Source: Pseudomonadota bacterium
GTDB lineage: Bacteria; Pseudomonadota; Alphaproteobacteria; Caulobacterales; Caulobacteraceae
Length of the DNA: 43,535 bases
Assembly (NCBI GenBank): GCA_021816155.1
Contig: JAKAZA010000014.1
Location: forward strand, 1 to 43,535
Direction: 5' to 3'
Shown: in pieces, positions 14,295-33,237 of the stretch
How positions within the stretch are numbered: position 1 is the stretch's first letter
How the letters are laid out: each line of letters begins with the position of its first letter
Program-made: the position numbers and the translations under genes
Notes under the pieces: generated by a model
What the model was told of the DNA's origin: nothing
The model's database searches: none
Seen by the model: the letters and a program-made list of their open reading frames with translations, nothing else

Positions 14295-16972
14295 CGCTGG
14301 ATGAGCCGCGCCGTCCCGACCCCGATGCGCTTCTCGCCGAGGCGCGCAAGGCGGGGCGCGGCCGGCTCAAGGTGTTCCTCGGCATGGCGCCGGGGGTCGG
14401 CAAGACCTACGAGATGCTGGCGCAGGCCGCGCGTCGAAAGGCCGAGGGCCGCGACGTCGTCGTAGGCGTGGTCGAGACCCACGGGCGACGGGAGACCGAG
14501 GCGCTGACCCCCGGCCTCGAGATTCTGCCGCGAAGGCCGATCGAGTATCGCGGTCGTACGCTGATGGAGTTCGACATCGACGCCGCCCTGGCCCGCAAGC
14601 CCGAGCTGCTATTGGTCGACGAGTTCGCCCACACCAATGCGCCGGGCTCGCGCCACCCCAAGCGTTGGCAGGATGTCGAGGAGCTGATCGCCGCGGGCGT
14701 CAACGTCTGGACAACGCTCAACGTCCAGCACCTGGAGAGCCTCGTCGACGTTGTCTGGAAGATCACGGGAGTGCGCCAGCGCGAGACCGTGCCGGACAGC
14801 GTCATCTCCAGGGCCGACGAGATCGAGATCGTCGACGTCACTCCGGCTGAGCTTCGCCAGCGGCTCGCGGAGGGCAAGGTCTACGTGCCGGAGACGGCTA
14901 GGCTCGCGTCCGAGAACTTCTTCAAGCCCGAGAACCTGACGGCCCTGCGCGAGCTGGCGCTTCGCCGCGCCGCCCAGGCTGTCGACGACGAGCTCGTCGG
15001 CGCCATGCGCCGCGCCGGAGTCGCCGGGCCCTGGCCCGCCGGCGAGCGCATACTGGTGCTTGTCGCCGGGGACCCGATGGCCGACCATCTCGTGCGGACC
15101 GGGCGGCGTCTGGCTGAAATGATGAATGCGCCATGGACGGTCGCGCACGTCGAGCGCACCGGCCGGCCGCCGCCTAACCACGCCGTCCTTGGTCGGGTGC
15201 ACGAGGCGATGAAGCTTGCCGAGCAGCTGGGCGCGACGACCGTGACGCTGACCGCCGAGGACATCGTCGCCGCCGTCGGCGACTACTGCGGCAAGAACAA
15301 CGTGACGCAGCTGGTCATAGGCAAGGGGCGCGACAGCCGTTGGCGCGAGGCGCTGGGCCGCTCGTTCGCCGGCGCGATGATGCGGCAGGCCAGGGGCGTG
15401 GCGCTGCACGTCGTCACCGAACGCTCGGTCGAGCCGCCGCGCTCGACCCTGCGCCAGCGCGTGGCGCGCGAGCCAGGAGTCTGGCGCCGCTACCTGCCGG
15501 GCGTCGGCTACGTGGCCGTCGCGACCGCGGTGGCCTTCTATCTGGATCGCACCTTCCGAGCGTCCGATCTCGGGATGATCTTCCTGGCCGCAGTGCTCAC
15601 CGCAGCGGTGCTGCAGGGCCTGAGGCCGGCGCTGGCGGCCGCAACGCTGGCTTTCCTCGTCTACAACTACCTGTTCCTCGAGCCTCGCTACAGCCTCGCC
15701 ATTGGCTCGCCGACCGACGTGCTGACGCTTGGCGTGTTCTTCGCGGTGGCGCTCGTCACCGGCATCCTCGCCGGCCGCGTGAGGGACCAGCAGGCCGCGA
15801 CCCAGCGGCGCGCCGCGGCGATCACGACCTTGCTGGCCGCCAGCCGCCGCCTTTCCGCGTCGGCGAAGAAGCTCGACGCGGCCAATGCGCTCGCCGAGCA
15901 GCTTTCGGCCGCGACCGGCGGCAGGGCGACGATCCTGCTGCCCGACGCCGGCGAGATCACCCCGGCCGCCGGTGCGCCCGCGCTGACACAGCTCTCGACT
16001 CCCGACATGGCCGCTGCGCGGTGGGCGTGGACGCACGGCGAGCCGGCCGGCGCCGGCACCGGCACTTTGCCTAACGCGGCCTGGACCTTTTGGCCCCTGC
16101 AAGGCATCAGCGCTCGCGTCGGAGTCGCCGGGACCGAGCCGCAGGGAGCGGGCGGCGGCGACCAGCAGCGCTTCGTCCTCTCGTTGCTGGATCAGGGCGC
16201 CATCGCCGTCGAGCGGGCGGAATTGGCGGCGGAGGCGTCCGAGGCGGATGCGCTCCGGCGGTCCGAGCGCCTGCGCACCGCGCTGCTCAACTCGATCAGC
16301 CATGACCTCAGGACCCCGCTGGCCGGCGTGCTAGGCGCAGCGACGACTCTGATCGAATACGGCGCTTCGCTCGACCAACCGGTGCAGGAAGATCTGCTCG
16401 AGAGCATCCGCGACGAGGCCGAGCGCCTCAATCGCTATGTCGGCAACCTGCTCGACATGACCAAGCTCGAGGGCGGCGGCGTCGCCCCGCGCACACAATC
16501 GACCGATCTGCGCGACGTGGTCACCGCCGCGGCGGAGCGAATCGCCCGGCGCCTGGGCCGGCGCCAGCTGGTCCGCGATTTCCCGCCGGCGCTGACCACG
16601 GTGCCTGCGGATTCGGCCCTTCTCGAGCAGGCCTTGGTCAACATCCTGGAGAACGCCATCGCCTACAGTGACGACGGTTCCCGCATCGAAGCGGCGGTGT
16701 ACGAAGACGAGCGGAACGTGGTGATCAGCATCGAGGACGAGGGCAGGGGGATACCTACGGCGCAGTTGCGTCAGGTGTTCGAGAAGTTCCAGCGCCTCGA
16801 CCAGTCGAGCGACCGCGGCGCGGGGACGGGCCTGGGCCTCGCCATCGCGAAAGGCTTCGTCGAAGCGATGGGGGGGCGGATCGCGGCGGCCAGCCCGATT
16901 CACGATGGCCGCGGCACCCGCATCCTCGTCAGCCTTCCCAAAGAGAAAGCCACGCCCCATTGGCTGCTATGA
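14291..16972 (+). CDS. kdpD: KdpD sensor histidine kinase
   Basis: Membrane sensor kinase (893 residues, near identical in length to E. coli KdpD) that responds to K+ limitation or osmotic stress and phosphorylates KdpE. The N-terminal KdpD domain has the Walker-A-like GMAPGVGKTYEM (31-42). A universal-stress-like domain covers about 250-370. Four membrane helices lie at about 395-500. A GAF-like region follows, then the kinase core with the phosphorylated His671 in SISHDLRTPL and the ATP-binding motifs (NAIAYSDDGS, DEGRGIP, GTGLGLAIAKG). It overlaps kdpC and kdpE by 4 bases each. Confidence 0.97.
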   Translation: MTLDEPRRPDPDALLAEARKAGRGRLKVFLGMAPGVGKTYEMLAQAARRKAEGRDVVVGVVETHGRRETEALTPGLEILPRRPIEYRGRTLMEFDIDAALARKPELLLVDEFAHTNAPGSRHPKRWQDVEELIAAGVNVWTTLNVQHLESLVDVVWKITGVRQRETVPDSVISRADEIEIVDVTPAELRQRLAEGKVYVPETARLASENFFKPENLTALRELALRRAAQAVDDELVGAMRRAGVAGPWPAGERILVLVAGDPMADHLVRTGRRLAEMMNAPWTVAHVERTGRPPPNHAVLGRVHEAMKLAEQLGATTVTLTAEDIVAAVGDYCGKNNVTQLVIGKGRDSRWREALGRSFAGAMMRQARGVALHVVTERSVEPPRSTLRQRVAREPGVWRRYLPGVGYVAVATAVAFYLDRTFRASDLGMIFLAAVLTAAVLQGLRPALAAATLAFLVYNYLFLEPRYSLAIGSPTDVLTLGVFFAVALVTGILAGRVRDQQAATQRRAAAITTLLAASRRLSASAKKLDAANALAEQLSAATGGRATILLPDAGEITPAAGAPALTQLSTPDMAAARWAWTHGEPAGAGTGTLPNAAWTFWPLQGISARVGVAGTEPQGAGGGDQQRFVLSLLDQGAIAVERAELAAEASEADALRRSERLRTALLNSISHDLRTPLAGVLGAATTLIEYGASLDQPVQEDLLESIRDEAERLNRYVGNLLDMTKLEGGGVAPRTQSTDLRDVVTAAAERIARRLGRRQLVRDFPPALTTVPADSALLEQALVNILENAIAYSDDGSRIEAAVYEDERNVVISIEDEGRGIPTAQLRQVFEKFQRLDQSSDRGAGTGLGLAIAKGFVEAMGGRIAAASPIHDGRGTRILVSLPKEKATPHWLL

Positions 16973-17658
16973 GCGCGCTGAAGCCCCGCATCCTCGTCAT
17001 CGACGACGAACCGCAGATGCATCGGTTTCTCGGACCCGCGCTCGGCGCGGCCGGCTTCGAGCCGTTGCGCGCCGACACGGGGGCCGAGGGCCTGAGGCAG
17101 ATCGCCGCGGGGGCGCCGGACGCGGTCGTGCTCGATCTCGGCCTGCCGGACATGGACGGGAAGGACCTGCTGCGGGCCGCGCGCGTCTTCTACGAGGGCC
17201 CGGTGCTCGTGCTGTCGGCTCGCGAGCGCGAGGCGGAGAAGATCGCCGCGCTCGACCTCGGCGCCGACGACTACGTGCAGAAGCCGTTCGGGGTCGGCGA
17301 GCTGCTGGCGAGGCTGCGGGTCGCCTTGCGCCACCGCCTCGAGCGGTCGGGCGCGGGGCCGTTGGTGAAGGCGGGAGATCTCGAGATCGACCTCGTGCGC
17401 CGGCTGGTCAGCCGCGGCGGCGAGCCGGTGCGCCTCACCCCGAAAGAGTACGAGTTGCTGGCGCGGCTCGTCCAGGGCGATGGCAAGGTGCTCACGCACC
17501 GCCAGCTGCTCGTGGCGATCTGGGGCCCGGCGCACGTCGAAGATCTGCCGTACCTTCGCGTGCTGGTCGGCCAGTTGCGTCAGAAGCTGGAGGCCGAACC
17601 AGCTTCGCCGAGCCTGATCCTCACCGAGCCGGGGGTCGGCTACCGCTTTATGCGGTAG
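16969..17658 (+). CDS. kdpE: KdpE response regulator
   Basis: OmpR/PhoB-type regulator of 229 residues that activates kdp transcription after phosphorylation by KdpD. The ATG at 16969 overlaps the kdpD stop (ATGA); a TTG nine bases upstream is less likely. The receiver domain has the acidic pair D12-D13, the phosphorylated D56 in LDLGLPD, and the QKPFG loop near 104-108. The winged-helix output domain covers about 130-229 and ends in the usual TEPGVGYRF. Its 3' end overlaps the convergent minus-strand gene by 19 bases. Confidence 0.96.
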   Translation: MSALKPRILVIDDEPQMHRFLGPALGAAGFEPLRADTGAEGLRQIAAGAPDAVVLDLGLPDMDGKDLLRAARVFYEGPVLVLSAREREAEKIAALDLGADDYVQKPFGVGELLARLRVALRHRLERSGAGPLVKAGDLEIDLVRRLVSRGGEPVRLTPKEYELLARLVQGDGKVLTHRQLLVAIWGPAHVEDLPYLRVLVGQLRQKLEAEPASPSLILTEPGVGYRFMR

Positions 17659-17933
17659 GCTCTGCGCGGCGCCATCGCTGGCACGGTCCGGAACGCGTAC
17701 GAGCCGCCGAATGCGGCGAGCGCTGCCTCGGCGAGCCCGATCAGGATCACGCTCGCCGCTGCGTAGCACCCGGGACAGTGAAGTTCGCCGAGGCCGTGCC
17801 CGCAGATGCGGCCGAAGTGAGCGACAGGCTCCATAAGGAACGAAAGTGACGCGCCGCCGGCACAAGCGAAGCCCCAGCCCGCGACGACGCGAGCCAACCG
17901 ATCCTTGTCGAAGACGAAGCGCGAACGGGTCAT
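17640..17933 (-). CDS. small Cys/His-rich membrane protein divergent from ccoN
   Basis: A 97-residue protein I do not recognise. It has two hydrophobic segments (about residues 15-38 and 57-76) around a compact metal-ligand-like motif: C44-x-H46-x5-H52-C53-x2-C56. This could bind copper, iron or haem, but that is inference. The ATG at 17933 starts 36 bp from a FixK/FNR-like box that also serves ccoN on the other strand, so it may belong to the same low-oxygen response. The 3' end overlaps kdpE by 19 bases in a convergent arrangement. Composition is like the neighbours and the frame has a normal start, so it is probably a real gene. Confidence 0.65.
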   Translation of the reverse strand: MTRSRFVFDKDRLARVVAGWGFACAGGASLSFLMEPVAHFGRICGHGLGELHCPGCYAAASVILIGLAEAALAAFGGSYAFRTVPAMAPRRAYRIKR

Positions 17934-17969
17934 CGTTAACGCCCTAGCATGCCGGTTGCGGGGGCGGCA

Positions 17970-17983
17970 TTGACATGCATCAA
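17970..17983 (+). promoter_or_regulatory. FixK/FNR-type box upstream of ccoN
   Basis: TTGAC-ATGC-ATCAA is a near-perfect match to the FNR/FixK consensus TTGAY-N4-RTCAA. It lies 67 bp before the ccoN start and 37 bp from the start of the divergent small gene. cbb3 oxidase operons in alphaproteobacteria are classic FixK/FNR targets, induced at low oxygen, so the site is well supported by both sequence and context. Confidence 0.85.
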
Positions 17984-18049: not shown

Positions 18050-19711
18050 ATGACCGATGCTTTGGCGATGCGGCGGCAGGGGCCTCCGCTGGACGCCGCC
18101 GTCTACCTTGTAGTCTGCCTCGTCGGCGCGTTTCTGATGACCGTCGGCGCCGCGATGTCGAAGGATCCGCTCTTTCAGTTCGAGGCGGAGATTTTCATCG
18201 TCGGCTTCCTTGCCGGCGCAGCGATGCTCCTGATGGGCATCATGGGCGGCGCCTTCCGGCCCGAGCCCGAGAAATACATGGACGGCGTGATCCGGGCGGG
18301 GGTCATCGCGACCCTGTTCTGGGGCGTCGTGGGTATGCTGGTGGGCGTCGTCATCGCCGCCCAGCTCGCATTTCCCCGCATCATGTATCTGCCCGATTTC
18401 GGGCCGCTCAACTTCGGACGCCTCAGGCCCCTGCACACCTCGGGCGTGATCTTCGCTTTCGGGGGAAACGCCCTCATCGCCACCAGCTTCTACGTCGTGC
18501 AACGGACCTGCCGAGCGCGCCTGTTCGGCGGCGTGACCCCGTGGTTCGTATTCTGGGGATACCAGCTATTCATCGTGTCGGCGGCCCTGGGCTACCTCGC
18601 CGGGATCACGCGCAGCCAGGAGTATGCCGAACCCGAGTGGATGACCACGCTGTGGCTGGTGGTCATCTGGGTGGCCTACCTGCTGGTGTTCCTGGGCACG
18701 ATCTGGAAGCGCAAGGAACCCCATATCTACGTGGCGAACTGGTTCTACCTGGCGTTCATCGTCACCATCGCCATTCTGGTCCTCGTCAACAACATGGAGC
18801 TCCCCGTCGGGCTCCTGAACCATCGTAGCTATCCGGTCTGGGCTGGCGTTGAGAGCGCCATGGTCCAATGGTGGTACGGCCACAACGCCGTAGGGTTCTT
18901 TCTCACGGCCGGATTCCTGGCGATGATGTATTACTTCGTGCCCAAGCGCGCGGAGCGGCCGATCTATTCCTACCGGTTGTCGATCGTGCACTTCTGGGCC
19001 CTCATTTTCATCTATATCTGGGCCGGTCCGCACCACCTTCATTACACCGCGCTCCCGCAATGGACGCAGACGCTGGGCATGACGTTCTCGATCATGCTGT
19101 GGATGCCGTCCTGGGGCGGCATGATCAACGGCCTGATGACGTTGTCTGGGGCCTGGGACAAGCTCCGCACCGACCCGGTCGTTCGCATGCTGGTGGTGAG
19201 CCTGGCCTTCTATGGCATGGCGACGTTCGAAGGGCCGGTGATGTCGATCCGGACCGTCAACGCGCTATCCCACTACACAGACTGGACGATCGGCCACGTG
19301 CACTCAGGCGCGCTGGGCTGGGTCGGCTTCGTCACATTCGGCTCAGTCTACTGCATGGTGCCGTGGCTGTGGAAGAAGGAACGTCTCTATTCAAACTCGC
19401 TGGTCGAGTGGCACTTCTGGATCGCGACGACGGGTATTCTTCTCTACATAACATCGATGTGGGTCAATGGAATAATGGAAGGCTTGATGTGGCGCGAATA
19501 CACGCCGCAGGGGTTCCTTGCCTATTCTTTCGCCGAGACCGTTTCCGCCCGCCATGTGGGTAACGTGGTGCGACTGGTCGGCGGCCTCATGTACCTCTCT
19601 GGGGTCTTCATCATGGTCTACAACTGCTGGCGGACGGTGCGGATGCCGTCGGTCGAGCGCGCCCCGACGCTGGCGATGTTGCCAGCGGCGGCGGCCATTG
19701 CGGCGGAGTAG
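18050..19711 (+). CDS. ccoN: cbb3-type cytochrome c oxidase catalytic subunit I
   Basis: Catalytic haem b/b3-CuB subunit (553 residues from the chosen start) of the high-affinity cbb3 oxidase, which reduces O2 at low concentration and pumps protons across the inner membrane. About 12 membrane helices are visible. Histidine motifs expected for haem and CuB ligands are present: [28 protein letters not shown] and [11 protein letters not shown]. The start ATG 18050 has a G-rich ribosome site 12 bases upstream; the frame is open to 17975 but that would run into the FixK box. An ATG at 18068 is the other option. First gene of ccoNOQP-ccoGHIS-hemN. Confidence 0.97.
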
Positions 19712-19716
19712 GCGCC

Positions 19717-20463
19717 GTGGCTGGCTCTCCCTGGAAAGCGCACGGCGCGCTGGAGCGGCACTCGCTGCTCCTCCTGATTGGTATAGTAATCGTGGTCGCC
19801 ATCGGCGGTCTCGTCGAAATCGTGCCGCTGTTCTACCTGCACAACACGATCGAGCCGGTGCAGGGCATGCGCCCGTACACCCCGCTCGAACTCGAAGGAC
19901 GCGATATCTACATCCGCGAGGGCTGCTACGTCTGCCACTCCCAGATGATCAGGTCCCTGCGCGACGAAGTGGAGCGCTACGGCCACTACAGTCTCGCCGC
20001 CGAGAGCATGTACGACCACCCGTTCCAGTGGGGTGCGCACCGGCAGGGACCTGACCTCGCGCGCGTCGGCGGCAAGTACTCCGATGGCTGGCACCGGGAT
20101 CACCTAACGAACCCGCGCTCGGTCGTGCCCGAGAGTGTCATGCCTCCCTACCGGTTCCTGGCCGAGACCACCCTCGACTACCGTGACGTCGCGGACAAGA
20201 TGAGGACGATGCGGGCGCTCGGCGTGCCGTATACGGACGATGATATCAAGAACGCTGTCCAGGACCTGCGCGATCAGGACGATCCGACGGCGAGCCCAAC
20301 CGGGTTGCACGCACGGTACGGGAAGAACGTCAACATCCGCGACTTTGCCGGTGATCCGGGCCGCATCACCGAAATGGACGCGCTGATCGCCTACCTGCAG
20401 ATGCTCGGCACGCTCGTGGACTTCTCGACGTACCAGGCCGATGCGCCCAATAACCTCCGGTGA
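19717..20463 (+). CDS. ccoO: cbb3-type oxidase monohaem cytochrome c subunit II
   Basis: Membrane-anchored monohaem cytochrome c (248 residues) that passes electrons to CcoN. One N-terminal helix (about 17-40) is followed by a periplasmic domain with the haem motif C70-Y-V-C73-H74. The methionine ligand is probably in the later PESVMPPY segment. The start is GTG 19717, five bases after the ccoN stop. Standard position between ccoN and ccoQ. Confidence 0.96.
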
Positions 20464-20468
20464 AATCA

Positions 20469-20621
20469 ATGAGCTATGAGGCGATTTCGCGGTTCGTGCA
20501 GCAGGGTGGCACCGTCTACTTCACCCTTCTGTTCGTCGCCGTCTGTGTCTACGCGTTTTGGCCGAAGAACAAGGCGACATTCGACAAGGCCGCCCGCGCC
20601 GCGCTGGATGCGGAGGAATAG
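20469..20621 (+). CDS. ccoQ: cbb3-type oxidase small subunit CcoQ
   Basis: A 50-residue single-helix protein starting MSYEAISRFVQQGGTVYF and containing the typical VYAFWPKNKATFDKAA junction after the helix. CcoQ helps assemble or stabilise the cbb3 complex. ATG at 20469 lies 5 bases after the ccoO stop and the gene ends 2 bases before ccoP. The W-P-x-N-K segment and the position in the operon make the call secure despite the short length. Confidence 0.92.
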   Translation: MSYEAISRFVQQGGTVYFTLLFVAVCVYAFWPKNKATFDKAARAALDAEE

Positions 20622-20623
20622 TC

Positions 20624-21502
20624 GTGGCCGAACGCGATGAAGACGAGACCTCCGGCGTCGAGACGACAGGCCACGAGTGGGACGGAATCCGGGAATTCGA
20701 CACGCCGCTTCCCCGGTGGTGGCTGATTATCTTCTACGCTTCGATCGCGTTCGCGGTCATCTACTGGGTGCTGATGCCGGCCTGGCCGCTAATCACGACA
20801 AATACGCCTGGGCTTCTCCACTACTCCGAGCGCGCCAGCGTGATGCGGGAAGTGGCGGCCATGCGGGCCAAGCGCCAGGCTGAAGGGGCGCAACTGCAGA
20901 GGGCCACGCTGGAGCAGATCGAGAAGGATCCGCAGATGCAGGCCTACGCCTTCGCGGTCGGCCAGTCGATCTTCGGGGACAACTGTGCGGTTTGCCACGG
21001 CCAAGGCGGACTTGGCGGCAAGGGCTACCCGAACCTGCGCGAGGGGGTGTGGCTGTGGGGCGGCTCGCTGGAGCAGATCCAACAGACCATCACCTATGGG
21101 ATACGCTCGGGCGACCCCAACGCGCACAACTCTCAGATGCCGGCGTTCGGCCGCGACGGAATCCTCCAGCCTTCGCAGATCGACGATCTTACGGAGTACG
21201 TGGTCTCGCTGTCGCATCGCCCTGCGGACGCCGCGGCTGTGGCGCGCGCCGCGCCGCTGTTCCAGTCCAACTGCGCCGTCTGCCACGGCGCAGGCGGGAC
21301 GGGGAACCAACTCGTGGGGGCCCCCAATCTCGCCGACGGCGGTCGCCAGTGGCTCTACGGCTCCGACCGGGCCTCGATCCACGACCAGATCTGGAACGGC
21401 CACGGCGGCGTGATGCCGGCCTGGGGGCGCAGGTTCGACGCGAACACGATCAAGGCGCTCGCCGTGTACATCCACGCCAACGCCGGCGGGCAGGCGAGCT
21501 AG
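20624..21502 (+). CDS. ccoP: cbb3-type oxidase dihaem cytochrome c subunit III
   Basis: Dihaem cytochrome c (292 residues) that receives electrons from soluble cytochromes. GTG 20624 is the likely start (N-terminus AERDEDETSG), two bases after the ccoQ stop; the open frame upstream overlaps ccoQ. A conserved EFDTPLPRWW segment precedes one membrane helix (about 32-50). Two haem motifs follow: C121-x2-C124-H125 and C217-x2-C220-H221, each in a CAVCHG context, with methionines in SQMPAFG and GVMPAWG as likely axial ligands. Confidence 0.97.
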   Translation: MAERDEDETSGVETTGHEWDGIREFDTPLPRWWLIIFYASIAFAVIYWVLMPAWPLITTNTPGLLHYSERASVMREVAAMRAKRQAEGAQLQRATLEQIEKDPQMQAYAFAVGQSIFGDNCAVCHGQGGLGGKGYPNLREGVWLWGGSLEQIQQTITYGIRSGDPNAHNSQMPAFGRDGILQPSQIDDLTEYVVSLSHRPADAAAVARAAPLFQSNCAVCHGAGGTGNQLVGAPNLADGGRQWLYGSDRASIHDQIWNGHGGVMPAWGRRFDANTIKALAVYIHANAGGQAS

Positions 21503-21527: not shown

Positions 21528-23045
21528 ATGACCGTCGTCATCGAACGCAACCGGAAGGCAGGTGCGGACGCCACGCCGGCGACGGGCGGCGCCCCCATCT
21601 CCGTCGCGGAGGCGACGCGCGCGAAGGGCAGGGAAGGGTCCGGCCTCTACCGCAAGCGCACGCCGATCTATCCGAAGCTGGTCCACGGCCGCTGGAGAAC
21701 GATCAAATGGGCGCTGCTCATCGTGACCCTGGGAATCTATTACTCGACTCCCTGGATCCGTTGGGCGCGCCCAGCAGGCGCGCCGCAACAGGCGGTGCTC
21801 GTCGACTTCACGGGGCGGCGCTTCTACTTCTTCTCGATCGAGCTTTGGCCGCAGGAGGTCTACTTCATCACCGGCCTTCTGGTGATGGCCGCCTTGGCGC
21901 TTTTCCTCGTGACCTCTCTGTTCGGCCGGTTGTGGTGCGGTTACGCCTGCCCGCAGACCGTTTGGACCGATCTCTACATTGCTGTCGAGCGGCTCTTCGA
22001 GGGCGATCGTAACGCTCGGATGAAGCTCGACGCCTCGAAGTGGTCGTTCGACAAGCTGTGGCGCAAGGTGGGCAAGCACGCGGTGTGGCTGGTCATCGCG
22101 TTCTCCACCGGCGGCGCATGGATCTTCTATTTTCACGACGCCCCGACGCTCCTCAAGACGTTCTGGGTCGGACAGGCGCCGATGACCGCCTACGTCTCGG
22201 CCGGCGTGTTGACGCTGACCACCTATGGGTTGGCCGGCACGATGCGCGAACAGGTCTGCACCTACATGTGTCCTTGGCCGCGCATCCAAGGCGCCATGAT
22301 CGACGGTCATTCCCTCCAGGTCACCTACCGCAGCGACCGGGGCGAGCCGCGTGGGCCGCACAAGAAGGGACAGTCGTGGGAGGGCCGAGGCGACTGCGTC
22401 GACTGCAACCAGTGCGTAGTGGTCTGCCCGATGGGCATAGACATCCGCAACGGGGGCCAGATCGAGTGCATCAACTGCGGCCTGTGCATCGACGCGTGCA
22501 ACGAGATCATGGTCCGGCTCGAGCGGCCGACCGGGCTCATCGCCTATGACACAGACGAGGCTGTCGCGGCGCGCAGGGCGCGCCAGAGGCCGGTCTATCC
22601 CCTCGTACGCAGCCGCACGATCTACTACGGCGTGGCCCTGACGGCGGTTTCGCTGCTCATGGCCTTCGGCCTTGCGACACGCTCTCCGGTTGACTTCGCT
22701 GTACTGCGCGACCGCAACCCGACCTTCGTGCGGCTGGACGACGGTTCGGTCCGTGACGGATACACGCTCAAGATCGAAAACCGCAGCTGGGAGCGGCGCG
22801 CGTTCCAGGTGTCTCTGGGGGGGCTGCGCGGCGCCACGATGCAAACGCCGGGCGCCGCGCCCTCCGCCGCGCCCCTCAGCGTCACGGTGGAGCCGAACCA
22901 GGTCCTGGCGCTGCGGGTGCTGGTGACCGCGCCGCCCGCCTCGCTCACCGCCCAAAGCGAGCCGTTGATCTTCACACTCTCCGGTGGCGGGCGCGCCTGG
23001 CGCAACGCTTCTGTGTTCCTCTCCTCCGACGTGGCCGCCCAATGA
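21528..23045 (+). CDS. ccoG: CcoG/RdxA polyferredoxin-like copper reductase for cbb3 assembly
   Basis: A 505-residue membrane protein with five or so helices and two ferredoxin-type 4Fe-4S motifs (CVDCNQCVVVCP and CINCGLCIDAC, residues about 289-327). Other family cysteines occur in CGYACPQTVW and CTYMCPWPR. CcoG is reported to reduce Cu(II) to Cu(I) for delivery to the oxidase. The C-terminal part is an Ig-like periplasmic domain. It starts 25 bases after ccoP and overlaps ccoH by 4 bases (ATGA). Confidence 0.95.
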   Translation: MTVVIERNRKAGADATPATGGAPISVAEATRAKGREGSGLYRKRTPIYPKLVHGRWRTIKWALLIVTLGIYYSTPWIRWARPAGAPQQAVLVDFTGRRFYFFSIELWPQEVYFITGLLVMAALALFLVTSLFGRLWCGYACPQTVWTDLYIAVERLFEGDRNARMKLDASKWSFDKLWRKVGKHAVWLVIAFSTGGAWIFYFHDAPTLLKTFWVGQAPMTAYVSAGVLTLTTYGLAGTMREQVCTYMCPWPRIQGAMIDGHSLQVTYRSDRGEPRGPHKKGQSWEGRGDCVDCNQCVVVCPMGIDIRNGGQIECINCGLCIDACNEIMVRLERPTGLIAYDTDEAVAARRARQRPVYPLVRSRTIYYGVALTAVSLLMAFGLATRSPVDFAVLRDRNPTFVRLDDGSVRDGYTLKIENRSWERRAFQVSLGGLRGATMQTPGAAPSAAPLSVTVEPNQVLALRVLVTAPPASLTAQSEPLIFTLSGGGRAWRNASVFLSSDVAAQ

Positions 23046-23533
23046 CCTCATCCGACGAGACTGGCTCTGGCTTCCGCCTGACGGGCTGGCATGTGCTGGG
23101 CGCCACCGTGGCGTTCTTCGGGATCATCACGGTCGTCGACACGATGATGATCGTGGACGCCTACCGCACCTACCCGGGCGAGGTGTCGAGTCAGCCGTAC
23201 GAGGAAGGTCTGGCCTGGGATTCCGAACTCGCCCAGCAGCGCGCCCAGGCCGCGCTCGGCTGGAGCATGACCGCCGGGCTCACGCACGACGGCCTGATCG
23301 AAGTGACTGCGCGGGACCGTGCTGGCGCGCCGCTGAACTTCGCGAGGATCGAGGCCAGGCTGGAGCGGCCAGCGACGGAACAGGGCAAGCTAAGCGTGAG
23401 ATTCGCGCCAGTCGGTCCGGGGGTCTGGCGCGCCAACGTGGGTCGGCTCTTCGGCGCGTGGGATTTGCGGCTCAGCGCTTTCGGGCCGCGCGGCGAGCGC
23501 TTCGACGCCGAACGGCGGCTGATTTGGCCGTGA
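23042..23533 (+). CDS. ccoH: CcoH/FixH cbb3 assembly protein
   Basis: A 163-residue protein with one N-terminal membrane helix and a periplasmic domain. The segment GWHVLGATVAFFGIITVVDT, then YRTYPGEV, is characteristic of FixH/CcoH, which associates with CcoN and with the copper ATPase CcoI during assembly. It overlaps ccoG (ATGA) and ccoI (GTGA), so translation of the whole block is coupled. Confidence 0.92.
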   Translation: MTSSDETGSGFRLTGWHVLGATVAFFGIITVVDTMMIVDAYRTYPGEVSSQPYEEGLAWDSELAQQRAQAALGWSMTAGLTHDGLIEVTARDRAGAPLNFARIEARLERPATEQGKLSVRFAPVGPGVWRANVGRLFGAWDLRLSAFGPRGERFDAERRLIWP

Positions 23534-25731
23534 CCGCGCTGGAAGCCGATCTGTCAAAGTACGTCGCCGCCAGCGAGAGCGGGCAAGGTCGACTGGAGAT
23601 TCTCGTTCGTGGCGCGAAGTGCGCGGCCTGCCTCGCCAAGGTCGAACGGGCGGCGCAGGCGGCGCCGGGCGTCACGGCCGCGCGCCTCAACCTGACGACC
23701 GGCAAGCTTTCGGTCAGCTTCGGATCGCCGAGGGGCGACCCCGCCGCCGTGATCTCCGCGGTCGAAGCGGCCGGCTACGGCGCCTGTCTGTTCGACCCCG
23801 CCGCCCTGAAGAGCGCGCAGGACGCGGAGGGGCGGCGTCTGACCCTGGCGCTCGGCGTCGCCGGCTTCGGCGTTGGCAACGTAATGATGTTCTCGGTGCC
23901 CGTCTGGGCCGGCCTCTTCGGCCAGGAGTTCACGCCCGAGACGCGCAGCCTGATGTACTGGCTGGCCGCCGTTGTCGCGACGCCATGCGCCCTCTACGGC
24001 GGCATGCCCTTCTTCGCTTCGGCCTGGAAATCGCTCAGCCGCGGCAAGGCCAATATGGACGTGCCCATCACGCTAGGCGTCCTGCTCACGCTCGCCGTGA
24101 GCTTTTCCGAGACCATCCAGGGCGGCCGGCACGCATATTTCGATGCGGCTGTCACGCTCATCTTTCTGTTGCTCATCGGCCGCTGGCTCGATCACGCGCT
24201 TCGTATCCGGGCCCAAGGCGCGGCGCGCGACCTCCTGGCCCTGCAGGCGCCTGTTGCAAGGCTGATCATCGAGGGCGGGGCCGAACTGGGCGTGCCCGTG
24301 CGGGAGGTCGGCGTCGGGGATCGCATCGCCGTGCTGCCCGGCGAGCGGGTCGCAGTTGATGGCGTCGTTGAGGCTGGCGTCTCCGACATCGACAACGCGC
24401 TGATCACGGGAGAGACGCAGGGTGCGCCGGTCGGCCCAGGCGACTCGGTGCACGCCGGGGCGCTCAACCTCTCCGGCCGGATCACGCTGCGCGCCACCGC
24501 GAGGTCGGAGGATTCGACGCTCGCCAACATCGCGCGCCTTGTCGAGGCTGGAACCCAGTCGAGGTCGCGGTACGTCCGCCTCGCCGACCGCGCCGCTTCT
24601 GTCTACGTGCCGGTGGTCCACGCGCTCGCTCTCGCCACGTTCACCGGCGCATGGGCGATGGGCCTGGGGCCGCGCGAGGCGCTGCTGCGCGCCGCGGCCG
24701 TGCTGATCGTCACCTGCCCCTGCGCGCTCGGACTGGCCGTGCCAGCGGTGCAGATCGCCGCGTCCGGACGCCTGTTCCGGCAGGGCGTGCTGGTGAAGTC
24801 CGGCGCGGCTCTGGAGCGGCTCGCCGAGGCCGACGTAGTCGCCCTGGACAAGACCGGTGTCCTGACCGAGGGCCGGCCGCACCTGCTGGCGGCAAAACCC
24901 GATGAACTGGCGGCGGCCGCGCCGCTCGCCCGCGCGTCGCGACATCCTCTGGCCCAGGCCGTCGCCCGCGCCGCCGGGCCAGGTCCGTCAGCCGAAAGCG
25001 TGCGCGAAACGGCTGGCCTTGGCGTCGAGGGGCTGGTGGACGGACGCAGGGCGCGCCTTGGTCGGTCCGAGTTCGTCGGCGCAGAGGCCCAGGCAGGAGC
25101 GGAGAGCGAAATCTGGTTCCGCATCGAGGGCCGGGAGCCCGTTCGCTTCGTCTTCGCGGACGCTCTGCGCGGTGACGCGGCGAAGACGGTCTCGCAGCTC
25201 GAGGCGCGCGGGCTCGAGCTGCTGGTGCTCTCGGGCGACGCCGAGGGGCCAGTGGCGCGAACGGCTCGCTCGAGCGGAATCGGTCAGTGGCGCTCGGGCC
25301 TGACGCCGCTCGAGAAGGTCAATGCGATCGAGGCCCTGGCGAGGGCCGGCCGCAAGGTGCTGATGGTGGGCGACGGGCTCAACGACGCGGCTGCGTTGGC
25401 CAGGGCGCATGTGTCGATGGCGCCGGGCGCTGCAGTCGAGGCCAGCCAGAACGCCGCGGACCTCGTGTTCGAGGGCGGCGGGCTGATGGCGATCGTCGAG
25501 GCGATCGATGTGGCGAGAGCCGCCAAGGTGCGCGCGCTGGAAAATTTCGGCTTTTCGGCCCTCTACAACGTCGTCGCCGCGCCGGTGGCGGTGCTCGGTC
25601 TGGTCAACCCGTTCCTGGCCGCCATCGCGATGTCGTCGTCGTCGCTGACGGTGACTTTGAACGCGTTGCGGATGAACTGGAGGGGCGGGAAGGGGGCATG
25701 GCCCAACCTGGCAGGGTTCACTCGCCGATGA
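23530..25731 (+). CDS. ccoI: CcoI/FixI copper-translocating P-type ATPase
   Basis: P1B-type ATPase (733 residues) that exports Cu(I) for insertion into cbb3 oxidase. The start is the GTG at 23530 in the GTGA overlap with ccoH; the longer open frame back to 22984 overlaps ccoH and ccoG and is spurious. An N-terminal heavy-metal domain has C31-A-A-C34. The transmembrane metal site is C396-P-C398. The phosphorylated aspartate is D440 in DKTGVLTEG, and GDGLNDAAALARAHVSMA is the hinge motif. CcoI-type rather than CopA-type is supported by its place between ccoH and ccoS. Confidence 0.96.
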   Translation: MTALEADLSKYVAASESGQGRLEILVRGAKCAACLAKVERAAQAAPGVTAARLNLTTGKLSVSFGSPRGDPAAVISAVEAAGYGACLFDPAALKSAQDAEGRRLTLALGVAGFGVGNVMMFSVPVWAGLFGQEFTPETRSLMYWLAAVVATPCALYGGMPFFASAWKSLSRGKANMDVPITLGVLLTLAVSFSETIQGGRHAYFDAAVTLIFLLLIGRWLDHALRIRAQGAARDLLALQAPVARLIIEGGAELGVPVREVGVGDRIAVLPGERVAVDGVVEAGVSDIDNALITGETQGAPVGPGDSVHAGALNLSGRITLRATARSEDSTLANIARLVEAGTQSRSRYVRLADRAASVYVPVVHALALATFTGAWAMGLGPREALLRAAAVLIVTCPCALGLAVPAVQIAASGRLFRQGVLVKSGAALERLAEADVVALDKTGVLTEGRPHLLAAKPDELAAAAPLARASRHPLAQAVARAAGPGPSAESVRETAGLGVEGLVDGRRARLGRSEFVGAEAQAGAESEIWFRIEGREPVRFVFADALRGDAAKTVSQLEARGLELLVLSGDAEGPVARTARSSGIGQWRSGLTPLEKVNAIEALARAGRKVLMVGDGLNDAAALARAHVSMAPGAAVEASQNAADLVFEGGGLMAIVEAIDVARAAKVRALENFGFSALYNVVAAPVAVLGLVNPFLAAIAMSSSSLTVTLNALRMNWRGGKGAWPNLAGFTRR

Positions 25732-25907
25732 ACATCATCCTCGTTCTCGCGCCGATCTCGCTGCTCCTGGCGCTGACCGGGTTGGGGGCCTTCTGGTGGA
25801 CCGTGCGGAGCGATCAGTACGACGACCCGGTGGGCGACGCCGTCCGCGTGCTGGACGACCGCTACGACGAGACACCCGGGGGCGCATCATCCGGAGGCGC
25901 GTCATGA
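25728..25907 (+). CDS. ccoS: CcoS cbb3 oxidase maturation protein
   Basis: A 59-residue protein starting MNIILVLAPISLLLALTGLG, one membrane helix, followed by the family's FWWTVRSDQYDDPVGDAVR segment. CcoS is needed to load haem and copper cofactors into cbb3. It overlaps ccoI and hemN by 4 bases each (ATGA). The true start at 25728 lies well inside a longer shadow frame. Confidence 0.93.
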   Translation: MNIILVLAPISLLLALTGLGAFWWTVRSDQYDDPVGDAVRVLDDRYDETPGGASSGGAS

Positions 25908-27286
25908 CCGTTTCCTACGCCGACCAGCTTCAGCTGCGCCGCATGGAGTTGCTGTCCGCATACGGCGGCCGTGCGCCGCGCTATACGAGCTACCCCACCG
26001 CCGCGCAGTTCACGCCAGACATCGGGCCGGCGACCTATGCGGGCTGGCTCTCGGAGCTGCCTGCCGACGCATCGGTTTCCCTTTACGTCCACGTGCCCTT
26101 CTGCGCGCGGCTCTGCTGGTACTGCGGCTGCAACACTCGCGCGGTGACCCGGCCGGGGGTGCTGGCCGATTACATCAGCCTGCTGCGCGAGGAGATCGCG
26201 CTGGTGGAAAAGCACCTGCCTGGGCCGATGAAGGCGCACGCGATCCACCTGGGCGGCGGCACGCCGAACATGACGTCCGTCGACGACCTCACGGTGCTGT
26301 TCGCGACGCTGCGCCAAGTTTTCCGGGTGGCGCCGGGCATCGAGATCGCCGCCGAGATCGACCCCGCCCAGCTTAGGCCCGAGTGGGTGCGCGCGGCGGC
26401 TTTTCACGGCCTTTCCCGCGCCAGCCTCGGGGTGCAGGACCTCTCGCCCGAAGTGCAGGCGGCGGTGAACCGGATCGAGCCTTTCGAGGTGGTGGCGCGG
26501 GCCGCGCGGCTGTTGCGCCGCGCGGGTGTCGCGTCCCTCAATCTCGACCTGATGTACGGCCTGCCGCGCCAGCGGAGCGCACACGTGCTGGCGACGCTGG
26601 ACGCGGTGCTTACGCTGAAGCCCGATCGGCTGGCCCTGTTCGGCTACGCCCATGTCCCCTGGATGAAGCCGCATCAGAGACTCATCGACGAAACGACACT
26701 GGCCGGCGACGCCGAGCGGCTCGAGCAAAGCGAGGCCGCGGCCGAACGGCTCGCCGCCGAGGGCTACGTGCGCATCGGCCTGGACCATTACGCCCTGCCG
26801 CATGACGAGCTCGCGATTGCGCTCCAGGAAGGATGGCTTCGGCGCAACTTTCAGGGCTACACCACCGACGAGGAAGGACCCCTGATCGGCTTCGGGGTCT
26901 CGGCCATAGGCGAGACGTCGCGCGGCTACGTCCAGAACAGCGCCGACGAGGTGACGTGGCGCAAGGCGGTGGCGGCCGGCAGGCTGCCCACCGCGCGCGG
27001 CGTCGCCGTGACCGAAGACGACCGTCTGCGGGCCGAGCTCATCCAGCGACTGATGTGCGATTTCGCCGTCGACGTCCCCGCAGTCGAGGCGCGGCAGGCC
27101 CGGCGTCTGGCCGCAGACCCGATGCGTGAGGCTGCGCTGGCGGGGCTGGCGCGCGACGGGGTGATCGAAGACACCGCTGGCGTGATCCGCATTACGGAGC
27201 TCGGCCGCCCGTTCGTCCGACAGGTTTGCGCCGCATTCGACGCCTATCTCGCGCCTGAGGCGTTGAGACACTCGCGGGTCGTCTGA
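25904..27286 (+). CDS. hemN: oxygen-independent coproporphyrinogen III oxidase
   Basis: Radical-SAM enzyme (460 residues) that decarboxylates coproporphyrinogen III to protoporphyrinogen IX without O2, supplying haem at low oxygen. The cluster motif C67-x3-C71-x2-C74-G-C lies in HVPFCARLCWYCGCN. Typical HemN segments include the N-terminal APRYTSYPTAAQF and GGGTPN. The ATG at 25904 overlaps the ccoS stop, so it is the last gene of the cco operon and presumably shares its FixK control. Nine bases separate its stop from that of the convergent hpnL. Confidence 0.96.
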   Translation: MTVSYADQLQLRRMELLSAYGGRAPRYTSYPTAAQFTPDIGPATYAGWLSELPADASVSLYVHVPFCARLCWYCGCNTRAVTRPGVLADYISLLREEIALVEKHLPGPMKAHAIHLGGGTPNMTSVDDLTVLFATLRQVFRVAPGIEIAAEIDPAQLRPEWVRAAAFHGLSRASLGVQDLSPEVQAAVNRIEPFEVVARAARLLRRAGVASLNLDLMYGLPRQRSAHVLATLDAVLTLKPDRLALFGYAHVPWMKPHQRLIDETTLAGDAERLEQSEAAAERLAAEGYVRIGLDHYALPHDELAIALQEGWLRRNFQGYTTDEEGPLIGFGVSAIGETSRGYVQNSADEVTWRKAVAAGRLPTARGVAVTEDDRLRAELIQRLMCDFAVDVPAVEARQARRLAADPMREAALAGLARDGVIEDTAGVIRITELGRPFVRQVCAAFDAYLAPEALRHSRVV

Positions 27287-28584: not shown

Positions 28585-29739
28585 TTGGCCATTCCTCTGG
28601 CGGTGACGGCGCGCGTCGGCGCCTACATCATGAAGCAGCAGCTGGCTGGCGTGAGACGCTACCCGCTGGTGCTGATGCTCGAGCCGCTTTTCCGCTGTAA
28701 TCTCGCCTGCGCCGGCTGCGGCAAGATCGACTACCCGGCAGAGATCCTGAACCAGCGACTGTCGGTCGCCGAGTGCATGGAGGCGATCGACGAATGCGGC
28801 GCGCCGGTCGTCTCGATCGCTGGCGGCGAGCCGCTGCTTCACCGTGACATCGCCAAGATCGTCGAGGGATTCCTTCAGCGCAAGAAGTTCGTGATCCTCT
28901 GCACGAACGCGCTTCTGCTGACCAAGAAGATCGACCAGTTCAAACCCGATCCATTCTTCACCTGGTCGATCCACCTCGACGGCGACCAACTGATGCACGA
29001 TCGTTCGGTCTGCCAGAACGGTGTCTACGACACGGCGGTGAAGGCGATCCGGCTCGCCAAGGCCAAGGGGTTCCAGTGCAACCTGAACTGCACCCTGTTC
29101 CAGGACGCCGACCCTGAACGGGTGGCCCGCTTCCTGGACGAGATGAAGGCGCTGGGTGTCGATGGCGTCACCATTTCGCCTGGCTACGCGTACGAGCGTG
29201 CGCCCGATCAGGAGCACTTCCTGAACCGCACCCGCACGAAGCAGCTCTTCCGTGAGATCCTGAAGCGTGGGCGAGGCGGCAAGGCTTGGTCGTTCACCCA
29301 GTCCACCATGTTCATGGACTTCCTGGCGGGCAACCAAGCCTACCACTGCACGCCTTGGGGCAATCCCACCCGCAACGTGTTCGGTTGGCAACGTCCCTGC
29401 TACCTGCTGGGCGAAGGCTACGCCAAGACCTTCAAGGAACTGATGGAAGAGACCGATTGGGACCAGTACGGCGTCGGCAACTACGAGAAATGCGCCGACT
29501 GCATGGTCCATTCGGGCTTCGAGGCCAGCGCAGTCGCCGACATCGTAAAGCACCCGCTGAAGGCTCTTTCAGTCACGGTGCGCGGCGTCCGCACCGAGGG
29601 GCCGATGGCCCCCGATATCCCCCTGGACAAGCAGCGACCGGCCGACTTCGTCTTCTCCAAGCACGTCGAGGAGCGCTTGGCGGAGATTCGCGCATCTAAT
29701 CCTCGCGCGCGCAGGGTGGCGCGTATCCCGGCGGAGTAA
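28585..29739 (+). CDS. hpnH: adenosyl-hopene transferase HpnH (radical SAM)
   Basis: Radical-SAM enzyme (384 residues) that joins the 5'-deoxyadenosyl group to hopene to give adenosylhopane, the first step of extended (C35) hopanoid side chains. The cluster motif is C38-x3-C42-x2-C45 in FRCNLACAGCGKID. Family segments include AGGEPLLH near 75-82, SIHLDGD near 130-136 and TPWGNPTRNVFGWQRPCYLL near 254-273. TTG 28585 is the start, with GGGAG 9 bases upstream; it gives MAIPLAVTARVGAYI, like known HpnH. Followed by a pentamer repeat and a convergent gene. Confidence 0.95.
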   Translation: MAIPLAVTARVGAYIMKQQLAGVRRYPLVLMLEPLFRCNLACAGCGKIDYPAEILNQRLSVAECMEAIDECGAPVVSIAGGEPLLHRDIAKIVEGFLQRKKFVILCTNALLLTKKIDQFKPDPFFTWSIHLDGDQLMHDRSVCQNGVYDTAVKAIRLAKAKGFQCNLNCTLFQDADPERVARFLDEMKALGVDGVTISPGYAYERAPDQEHFLNRTRTKQLFREILKRGRGGKAWSFTQSTMFMDFLAGNQAYHCTPWGNPTRNVFGWQRPCYLLGEGYAKTFKELMEETDWDQYGVGNYEKCADCMVHSGFEASAVADIVKHPLKALSVTVRGVRTEGPMAPDIPLDKQRPADFVFSKHVEERLAEIRASNPRARRVARIPAE

Positions 29740-29746
29740 GGCCGCC

Positions 29747-29776
29747 GGTCAGGTCAGGTCAGGTCAGGTCACGTCA
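29747..29776. repeat. tandem GGTCA pentamer repeat
   Basis: Five exact copies of GGTCA (29747-29771) and one variant CGTCA (29772-29776), just after the hpnH stop. On the minus strand each unit carries TGA, so the array places stop codons in all three frames, and the last supplies the stop of the minus-strand gene at 29774. Copy number could change by replication slippage. Confidence 0.9.
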
Positions 29777-30520
29777 CGTAAGGGAGCGTTCCCGGCGGAC
29801 AGTCGCGCCCGTGGCCGGCGGATGGCCCTCATCTAGTCGCGTCGACTGCGCCCTTTGTTCGTTTGTCGGCTCGGACGGTATCTGTACGCCTACGAATATC
29901 TCTACGGCTGCAGGCTCAGTGTCGGGTATCGGGGTGATGCCGGGCGAAACATAGATGCCGGCGGCGGCAAGCGCTCCCTCGAGCGAGACGAGCGGGCGCG
30001 TCTGAGCCAGCCGCCCGCGAATTGAAATCCCCGCCTCAGCTACGCCGTAGGCCCACTCCGCCTCGAAGTTCCTGAAGCACGCATGCTCCGTGTCTTCCCC
30101 CACGCGCGGCGGATCGAAGTGGGCGATGGCCGCGCGCTTGCCGATCTTCCTGAAGATTTGCAGCAGGACATGGGCGAGTCTTTGGGAGTCGCTGTTGCAC
30201 AGCGAGAATACCGCGATCTTGCCTTTCAGGGGCCTGGCGGCTTCCTCTATGTCCTTTATCTGAGCCGGCCTCAGCGTCAACGTCGCAAGGCCGGCCGCGT
30301 TGCTTGGCGCGATCGGGCGAAGCTGATCGGGTCCGACTTCGGAGGCGTTCGTAAACCCGGCGGCGTGCAGCCCCGCGCCGGCGCTTGCCGCGGGGCGCGC
30401 AGGATCCGGAGAGGCGACGCGGCTGCATACTCGCGGTCCGAATGCGAGTTCCGCAGCAAAGCCGACGAGAAGAGCGCAGAGGCCGAAGCGCCCGATAAGC
30501 ATTCCTAGTCTATCTCTCAT
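29774..30520 (-). CDS. unrecognised membrane-anchored protein
   Basis: A 248-residue protein of unknown function. It begins with a hydrophobic segment (about residues 8-29, FGLCALLVGFAAELAFG) that can be a membrane anchor or uncleaved signal. A small alpha/beta-looking domain follows at about 82-215, with the pattern LRPAQIKDIEEAARPLKGKI, then VFSLCNSDSQRLAHVLLQIF, and ending in VEIFVGVQIP. This pattern (helix, strand, helix, with a final hydrophobic strand) resembles poorly characterised domains at the ends of bacterial membrane proteins, but that is a weak impression. Third-position composition is less extreme than in the core genes. It is convergent with hpnH. Confidence 0.5.
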   Translation of the reverse strand: MRDRLGMLIGRFGLCALLVGFAAELAFGPRVCSRVASPDPARPAASAGAGLHAAGFTNASEVGPDQLRPIAPSNAAGLATLTLRPAQIKDIEEAARPLKGKIAVFSLCNSDSQRLAHVLLQIFRKIGKRAAIAHFDPPRVGEDTEHACFRNFEAEWAYGVAEAGISIRGRLAQTRPLVSLEGALAAAGIYVSPGITPIPDTEPAAVEIFVGVQIPSEPTNEQRAQSTRLDEGHPPATGATVRRERSLT

Positions 30521-31073
30521 TTGTCGGAGAGCCTGAAGGCCCGAGGTCGCGGCGCCAGACCTCCGCGACTACGTCGCAGGCGCACCGGTCGCCACGATGA
30601 TGGACGCAGCGCCATCCGGGACGTTCAAGTGTCCGGGTTCGGCCACGAGGAAAGGAGGCGACGACATATCGGTCGACGCGCCCGATATCAACGGCGCGCC
30701 TGGCTGGGTTTCGATTGTCTTTGCACAGTTTCGCGTAATGCGCGCGCCTCGCAGGATATTGTGGCCGGAACTTCGGCTCCAACGCGCTTCGGCGGCGATG
30801 GATCGAATGTTTGTCTGAAGCGTTGCTCATCCGTGGCGGACCGGCCGGCGCGAGATCGTGGAGTGATGGCCGAAGGCTGCGACGCGTGCGCCGGCGACCT
30901 GGAGCAATCCGGGTCTGGCATGGTGTCGGCATTCGACCGATCCTGGTTCACGATCTTGTGTGGCTGCGGGCGTCAAGCCGCCATCACTATATCACGACAT
31001 GACGTAAAATCACCCCGTCGCGTGGCGAGCGCGATGCTGGGCGGCTGCGGTCGATACTGAGGTTGATGACTAG
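30521..31073. other. 553-bp stretch without a convincing gene
   Basis: Lies between the divergent unrecognised gene and degP. Several frames stay open for 60-180 codons on both strands but have Arg/Ser-rich, shadow-like products and no family resemblance. The most protein-like is a 73-codon plus frame at 30597-30818 (MMDAAPSGTFKCPG...), which has a weak ribosome site and which I do not support as a gene. The last 100 bases are locally A+T-richer (ACTATATCACGACATGAC near 30986-31003) and probably hold the degP promoter; no clean sigma-32 or sigma-70 match was found. Confidence 0.5.
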
Positions 31074-32582: not shown

Positions 32583-32588
32583 CGCACC

Positions 32589-33227
32589 ATGCAAAGAGGG
32601 GGAGTTCTGGCCAGCGTCCTCGCGGCCATGCTGGCGGGGGCGGGCGCCAGCGGCGCCGACGCCGCTGGCGCTCAGCTCGTGCCGCCGTTGCAGGGGGCGC
32701 ATTTCGGCATGACGTCGAGCGCGTGGAAAGCGCTTCCGGTTCCGACGGGCGCCGACTCCACGGCGGCGCCCATTTGCTGGAGCGACAAGAGGCCGATCCG
32801 GATTCCGGGCTATCGACCGAGTGCGCAGGAGGCGCGGACGGACCTGACCACGTGCGCCTACGTCTCGCGCTACGGCAAGGATGTGTTCGCTGACTCGGTG
32901 CCTCTGGATCCGAGGTACCGCGCCACCAGCCTGCGCCTTCTATTCGATCAGGGCCGGCTTTCGCAGGAGACATTCCGCGCTTCGGTCGACGCCTACAGCG
33001 ACGTGATGACCCTGCTCACCCGGCGCTTCGGCAAGCCGACGGCGACCGTGCGCGACAGCTTTCTCACGTCGGTCGGCCGGATTGACCGCGTGCGTCACAG
33101 TTGGCGCCTCGGCTCCGGAAGGGTGACGCTTGTCGATCCGTCGATCGACCCGACGCAACTCGCCGTCGATATCGCGCTGGCGCCCGACACGGGTCCGGTG
33201 CGACGGCTGGCGCCGTCGGGGCGCTGA
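32589..33227 (+). CDS. unrecognised secreted protein in the degP operon
   Basis: A 212-residue protein with an N-terminal signal peptide (VLASVLAAMLAGAGASG, probable cleavage near residue 26) and a mature part that I cannot place in a family. Features: QGAHFGMTSSAWKALP near the mature N-terminus, a pattern common in periplasmic proteins of unknown function; two cysteines (C63 and C88) that could form a disulphide; and TRRFGKPTATVRD followed by WRLGSGRVTLVD, like the short beta-rich domains that begin with a 'FGM' helix. It starts 6 bases after the protease stop and may be a substrate, partner or regulator of it. It converges with hpnG (10 bp apart). Confidence 0.7.
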   Translation: MQRGGVLASVLAAMLAGAGASGADAAGAQLVPPLQGAHFGMTSSAWKALPVPTGADSTAAPICWSDKRPIRIPGYRPSAQEARTDLTTCAYVSRYGKDVFADSVPLDPRYRATSLRLLFDQGRLSQETFRASVDAYSDVMTLLTRRFGKPTATVRDSFLTSVGRIDRVRHSWRLGSGRVTLVDPSIDPTQLAVDIALAPDTGPVRRLAPSGR

Positions 33228-33237
33228 GGTCCGGCGT

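Follow-up and report, generated by a model that had tools for sequence, protein, structure and literature searches.

A small membrane protein family encoded divergently from ccoN in Caulobacterales, with a conserved Cys/His site and a putative accessory role for cbb3 oxidase

Examining a 43,535-base stretch of Caulobacterales DNA at its full length (hereafter the window), we found that a divergent 97-residue, two-helix ORF beside ccoN belongs to a protein family that adjoins ccoN in much of the order, keeps three Cys and one His in a C-x(3-21)-H-C-x2-C site, and in most loci of the window's own family lies behind a FixK/FNR-type box on its ccoN side. We rate these proteins as a new family of cbb3-linked factors with a putative accessory function. 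Tentatively, we favour an accessory function for cbb3 oxidase in which a Cys3His site on the periplasmic side probably binds Cu(I). cbb3 oxidases allow respiration at very low oxygen, and since the filling of their CuB centre is not settled in genomes without the copper importer CcoA, a conserved and unnamed ccoN neighbour is a direct candidate. The order includes the model Caulobacter vibrioides, for which cbb3 and aa3 strains and assays exist (PMC12617631).

The locus in the window

The divergent 97-residue ORF beside ccoN that a first-pass annotation had described is indeed present, and it sits among the following features.

17640..17933, minus strand: gene for the 97-residue two-helix protein of the ccoN-divergent family, ATG to TAG (stop codon 17640-17642)
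17766..17804, minus strand: codons of the conserved site, with C44 at 17802-17804, H52 at 17778-17780, C53 at 17775-17777 and C56 at 17766-17768
17970..17983, no strand: intergenic FixK/FNR-type box TTGACATGCATCAA, with ccoN and the small gene pointing away from it
18050..19711, plus strand: ccoN, cbb3 oxidase catalytic subunit (TIGR00780, 740 bits, match from residue 79)
19717..20463, plus strand: ccoO (TIGR00781)
20558..21502, plus strand: ccoP (TIGR00782 from residue 27; start uncertain, probably further in)
21528..23045, plus strand: ccoG (TIGR02745)
23042..23533, plus strand: ccoH (fixH), named by position only, without an NCBIfam match
23530..25731, plus strand: ccoI (fixI), copper P-type ATPase (TIGR01511 over its cut-off, tested from 23533), with a GTG start that overlaps the ccoH stop
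25728..25907, plus strand: ccoS-like 59-residue ORF, named by position and by eye
25904..27286, plus strand: hemN (TIGR00538 over its cut-off)
16960..17658, plus strand: kdpE-like response regulator gene (best NCBIfam match KdpE, below its cut-off)

The 97-residue ORF has a coding-like G+C content by codon position (0.66/0.58/0.80), and an alternative start is offered by a TTG at 17897, 36 nt downstream of the ATG and preceded by AAGGA. On its other side the kdpE-like gene is convergent, with ends overlapping by 19 bp, so the small gene is on its own here and heads no operon. For ccoN, the start that fits an upstream box is the ATG at 18050, the ATG at 17975 overlapping the box, and we assigned the former because AGGGGGG precedes it and the translation from 18050 matches TIGR00780.

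Between 18050 and 18290 the window encodes an N-terminal stretch of CcoN, apparently of two helices, that precedes the TIGR00780-matched region. Comparable stretches are present in other Caulobacterales loci whether or not these carry the small gene, and a pairing of the small gene with this two-helix extension was rejected since the extension is also found in gene-less loci (the pattern used was matched in only part of the loci). Further along, hpnH (TIGR03470) and a long ORF at 33924-35879 that by eye resembles squalene-hopene cyclase point to a hopanoid cluster (28585-35879) not far from the cco genes.

Recurrence beside ccoN and the conserved Cys/His site

Conservation next to ccoN in other genomes was one of the tests that the first-pass annotation had set, and it was borne out. 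We scanned about 900 bases upstream of ccoN on both strands for a helix, a Cys, a CxxC and a second helix, the His not being required. The ccoN loci came from TIGR00780 searches of the order, family and class, plus separately fetched stretches and two loci; L047 and L053 entered via searches with the small gene itself, their genomes also being TIGR00780 ccoN matches, and one genome whose contig begins inside ccoN (G089) was excluded. A divergent two-helix C...CxxC ORF adjoins ccoN in 47 of 74 Caulobacterales ccoN loci, made up of 26/35 in the window's family (f1), 10/11 in f2, 10/11 in f3, 1/8 in f4 and 0/9 in f5. Two real cases, L121 and L167, fall outside the scan thresholds and were missed. 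The same rule on the ccoN strand matched none of the 74 loci, and over the whole 43.5-kb window it matched this 97-residue ORF alone. Among other Alphaproteobacteria orders, represented by the best 30 of 44 ccoN matches from the class, there was a single match, which we dismissed as a chance ORF with Asp before its CxxC and no His. A class-wide search (A2) placed the gene in at least two of 385 genomes, both in the window's family; it is insensitive, because it scored no more than 13 candidates in any one genome and missed a member in G024, and the ccoN-anchored scan is the better test.

At the genome level, we scored the gene by a 57-member profile (47 genomes) and ccoN by TIGR00780 (65 genomes) across 119 genomes of the window's family, revealing 47 with both, 18 with ccoN only, 54 with neither and none with the gene only (Fisher p 1.4e-18, uncorrected for shared ancestry). 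With 18 of the 65 ccoN genomes lacking the gene, and with the low counts in f4 and f5, the gene is not required for cbb3 oxidase in general.

Two exceptions to the gene order deserve description. In G072 (L175, G072:C108, 1-4400), about 3.4 kb separates ccoN from the small gene and a FixK-type box precedes each of them, at 882 and 4285; by eye, the insert holds an ALA synthase (hemA)-like gene, a universal-stress gene and a gene for a small exported protein. In G066 (L176, G066:C19, ~4900), a family member lies away from ccoN, by eye between carboxylase-like and GH92-like genes, and its surrounding 10 kb hold no exact FixK box, the nearest 9/10 site being about 2.7 kb off.

Could this arrangement be inherited gene order only, without a functional tie to cbb3? 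All carriers found lie within one order and gene order can persist by descent, yet place and site are kept while identity to the window protein falls to 17-39%. Moreover, six genera (g1, g3, g22, g25, g29 and g31) contain some genomes with both genes and others with neither, gene content on the side away from ccoN varies among the 8 loci examined, and the gene occurs without ccoN in none of the 119 genomes, so we regard mere inherited order as very improbable, although the ccoN adjacency may in part be inherited synteny. As for what the far side holds, three loci of the window's genus (L003, L005 and L006) have a 2Fe-2S ferredoxin-like gene there, along with a gene for a conserved protein that starts MA[AT][VI]E and later contains DDFYKNPMNIAWSFKYIMS; this protein may be a di-iron oxygenase. 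L040 and L043 have, by eye, a gene resembling Crp/Fnr-type regulators with an N-terminal Cys motif.

The family was assembled from several searches. In a plain protein search of 40 relatives, there were 25 match loci including the window itself, 8 of them with ccoN and the others presumed to be noise; six same-genus genomes were found to carry divergent homologues adjoining ccoN. C44, H46, C53, P54 and C56 are common to the window protein and these six, and one locus (L004) has a short copy, a 71-residue open frame with Gln replacing His. Profile searches of f1 gave 27 aligned members, with C53 and C56 invariant and C44 and H52 in at least 90%; left out of these matches were L050, L052 and L054, which are not beside ccoN, as well as L057 and three matches without a locus. 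A homologue also occurs in Phenylobacterium deserti; over 1.1-1.2 kb its DNA shares about 88-89% identity with loci of f1 genus g7, other f1 genera following closely, which makes f1 very probably Caulobacteraceae. No match was found in a plasmid search with one homologue.

These alignments define the site. The window protein reads C44-x-H46-x5-H52-C53-x2-C56, the C-x-H-x5-H-C-x2-C motif that the first-pass annotation had noted. As a family site that motif holds in its Cys residues and in H52 but not in the His of its CxH: H46 is kept in the seven same-genus sequences and lost in the wider family, so that the conserved site comprises C44, H52, C53 and C56 and reads C-x(3-21)-H-C-x2-C family-wide. 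Loss of the Cys/His residues in homologues, which the annotation had named as evidence against its proposal, did not occur, the Cys and one His being kept. The widest alignment (A4) has 57 members, 32 of which were chosen by a pattern requiring [HP]C..C and an earlier Cys, so its Cys invariance is partly by construction. Less forced evidence comes from the same-genus set and, for the His, from the ccoN-anchored scan, where a His stood directly before the CxxC in 46 of 47 matches though it was not asked for. Mean column identity over the 57 members is 19%, and conservation of Cys3His while the rest drifts this far points to a metal or thiol site.

Five pairs of 49-76% protein identity gave dN/dS of 0.18, 0.23, 0.30, 0.44 and 0.62 (dS above 1 in two of the pairs), values from which we conclude that the small gene is under purifying selection. 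The annotation's description of the protein as unknown stands: for the family we found no significant Pfam, NCBIfam or PHROG match, only scattered weak ones, and the best E values of PDB profile searches were 0.065 (A2) and 0.27 (A4), to deaminases and a cytochrome c. In C. vibrioides, the presumed orthologue is CC_1400, the tags CC_1400, CC1400 and CCNA_01466 being flanked by the chemoreceptor gene CC_1399 and ccoN CC_1401 (PMC3751524). A literature search for these three tags found no paper, and a search for such a ccoN-divergent gene found no paper title or abstract opening about one.

Helices are placed at about 10-33 and 54-76 by hydropathy and a low-confidence model (mean pLDDT 57.9). 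The N-terminus is net positive in 36/57 members and the C-terminus in 43/57, with the pattern not followed in 21/57 and 14/57, respectively, and these terminal charges lean towards a hairpin with a periplasmic loop, which would put the conserved residues at the start of helix 2, probably on the periplasmic side.

The shared FixK/FNR-type box

The first-pass annotation had described a single TTGAC-N4-ATCAA box between the two genes, and a search for exact TTGAY-N4-RTCAA returned one match in all 43,535 bases, TTGACATGCATCAA at 17970-17983, against 0.01 expected in shuffles. Allowing one mismatch gave 2 matches vs 1.0 expected, so the exact site alone is informative.

A class II promoter has its activator site centred at -41.5. 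Since only about 43 nt separate the centre of the window box from the ATG of the small gene, we reckon that class II transcription of this gene would begin almost at its ATG and leave hardly any leader. The box suits the ccoN ATG at 18050 well, and with a near-zero leader on one side and a good fit on the other, the minus-strand promoter is the less certain one.

In 23 of the 27 homologous f1 loci, the gene is preceded on its ccoN side by a box with at least 9/10 positions, which begins 37 to 110 bases ahead of the assigned gene start; four loci (L044, L047, L055 and L056) have none at that threshold. The annotation's idea of a shared box therefore stands for most of f1 but not for f2 and f3, which mostly lack a strict box. 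Strict box and gene occur together in 14/26 f1, 1/10 f2, 3/10 f3 and 0/1 f4 loci, that is, in only 4/20 gene-bearing loci of carrier families f2 and f3. The gene is often in place where a strict box is absent, so its link appears stronger with the oxidase than with the box; co-regulation by FixK would apply to some of the group only, and the ccoN tie is more general. In an alignment of 13 box-bearing intergenic regions, the invariant columns were the two half-sites and a following GC, and nothing else; as the regions were picked for having a box, this shows merely that nothing else is equally well kept. A published comparison reports FixK in Caulobacterales, with FixLJ in all four studied (PMC4999443). 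Judging from the intergenic sequences, production of the small protein is probably tied to that of the oxidase through the shared FixK box in much of f1.

Proposed role and comparison with known systems

We propose that the product of the small gene is an accessory protein dedicated to the cbb3 oxidase of Caulobacterales. It would span the inner membrane as a helical hairpin whose two ends are cytoplasmic, so that the loop and the start of helix 2, bearing the three Cys and the one His, would face the periplasm. The C-x(3-21)-H-C-x2-C site would bind a soft metal, most likely Cu(I), and, during filling of the CuB centre, pass it on or keep it close to CcoI and CcoN, with the shared FixK box probably coupling its production to that of the oxidase in much of f1. 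The choice of Cu(I) is an argument from setting, namely the neighbouring CcoI, CcoG and CuB-containing CcoN, and a Cys3His site would suit Zn, Fe or thiol chemistry equally. The first-pass annotation's suggestion of a copper, iron or haem factor for cbb3 biogenesis is plausible in direction. Computation establishes the family, its tie to ccoN, the conserved residues and the box, and from these we infer the topology, the metal and its identity as Cu(I), the hand-over step and the control by FixK.

A more specific version has the protein as the missing CcoA-independent copper supply for Caulobacterales cbb3, in which the periplasmic Cys3His site would capture Cu(I), either for uptake or from CcoI, and give it to CcoN. 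Caulobacterales in the wide GTDB sense includes Hyphomonadaceae. A survey of 327 genomes describes Alphaproteobacteria with cbb3 and without the importer CcoA as mainly Caulobacterales, Hyphomonadaceae and four other groups, its account naming the groups and giving no number of CcoA-less Caulobacterales (PMC5829832). In other groups so reported, the best 30 of 44 other-order loci held no convincing case of the gene. The cbb3 oxidase of C. vibrioides needs FixI and PccA, and the study that reports this calls the importer potential and leaves it unnamed where it is discussed; its survey of gene neighbourhoods was confined to the strand that carries the ATPase gene, so that a divergent partner gene would escape it (PMC12617631). 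We hold this specific version to be doubtful.

Other roles for a two-helix hairpin tied to ccoN were weighed as well. With a structural zinc site, it might serve cbb3 or the CcoGHIS complex as a minor subunit that is structural or stabilising, or it might be a haem-related factor, the latter recalling hemN in the operon and the hemA-like gene (by eye) found on the other side of the small gene's box in G072. A subunit would not usually be transcribed separately and divergently, and the drift to 19% mean column identity outside the site speaks against a large conserved interface, which leaves this reading rather improbable. A further alternative is a small membrane thiol-redox protein that, in the manner of DsbB or VKOR, oxidises or reduces the cysteines of CcoO/CcoP or of copper chaperones, with its CxxC at the mouth of helix 2 and perhaps a dimeric four-helix bundle. 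Low-oxygen electron transfer would be a natural setting for it and the CxxC stands at a helix start as in the DsbB alignment (P-C-x2-C-x2-Q-R), but the His before the CxxC is nearly as conserved as the Cys pair (46/47) and the genome has its own DsbB (L197), and we judge this thiol-redox role unlikely.

The comparison with DsbB itself (PF02600) bears on the same point. Both place a CxxC at the start of a transmembrane helix, whereas DsbB has Q-R after its CxxC and a second Cys pair, and the small-gene protein has two helices in a weak model where DsbB has four. DsbB membership was rejected: hhalign against 17 alphaproteobacterial DsbB gave a probability of 1.2% over 8 columns, C-x2-C-x2-Q-R occurs in 0/57 members, and PF02600 is not among the family's Pfam matches. 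For VKOR, PF07884 is likewise not among them, and the hhalign comparison, which drew on two poorly aligned VKOR sequences, speaks neither for nor against a relationship.

The DUF2946 (PF11162)/CutF/CruR proteins are likewise small and membrane-targeted, with a CxxC that often has an earlier Cys; they are linked to copper genes and sense copper with CxxC/CxxxC as nascent proteins (PMC9426467, PMC9973294, PMC8456105). The protein might be a copper or redox sensor of this kind that tunes cbb3 production; FixK control would fit such a feedback loop, and there is a weak DUF2946 profile similarity around the CxxC (hhalign 35.7%, 16 columns), which is central in 57/57 members of A4 though a selection criterion for 32 rows. 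The hallmark of these proteins is a RAPP C-terminus about 45 residues after the CxxC (PMC9426467), though CutF-like proteins without RAPP are also noted (PMC9973294), and RAPP or RASP is found in the last 12 residues of 0/57 family members. Against PF11162, 2/57 members are listed at E up to 0.1, the best at 0.018, where recognised members score 8e-6 or better. Helix 2 follows directly after the CxxC, and in the window the next gene is convergent, so that control of ccoN by the known leader-ORF mechanism is not possible at this locus. With no convincing profile match, no RAPP and no downstream gene to control in the window, we rejected DUF2946/CutF/CruR membership and consider a sensor role quite improbable.

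The closest functional parallels to the proposed accessory protein are the known cbb3 factors CcoG, CcoH, CcoI and CcoS, together with CcoA, SenC and PccA, which are tied to ccoNOQP, located in the membrane or periplasm and engaged in copper handling, as we suggest here (PMC8475189, PMC5829832). The small gene differs from them in matching none of their families, in its divergent orientation, in encoding a hairpin that carries C-x(3-21)-H-C-x2-C, and in being seen only in Caulobacterales among the genomes searched.
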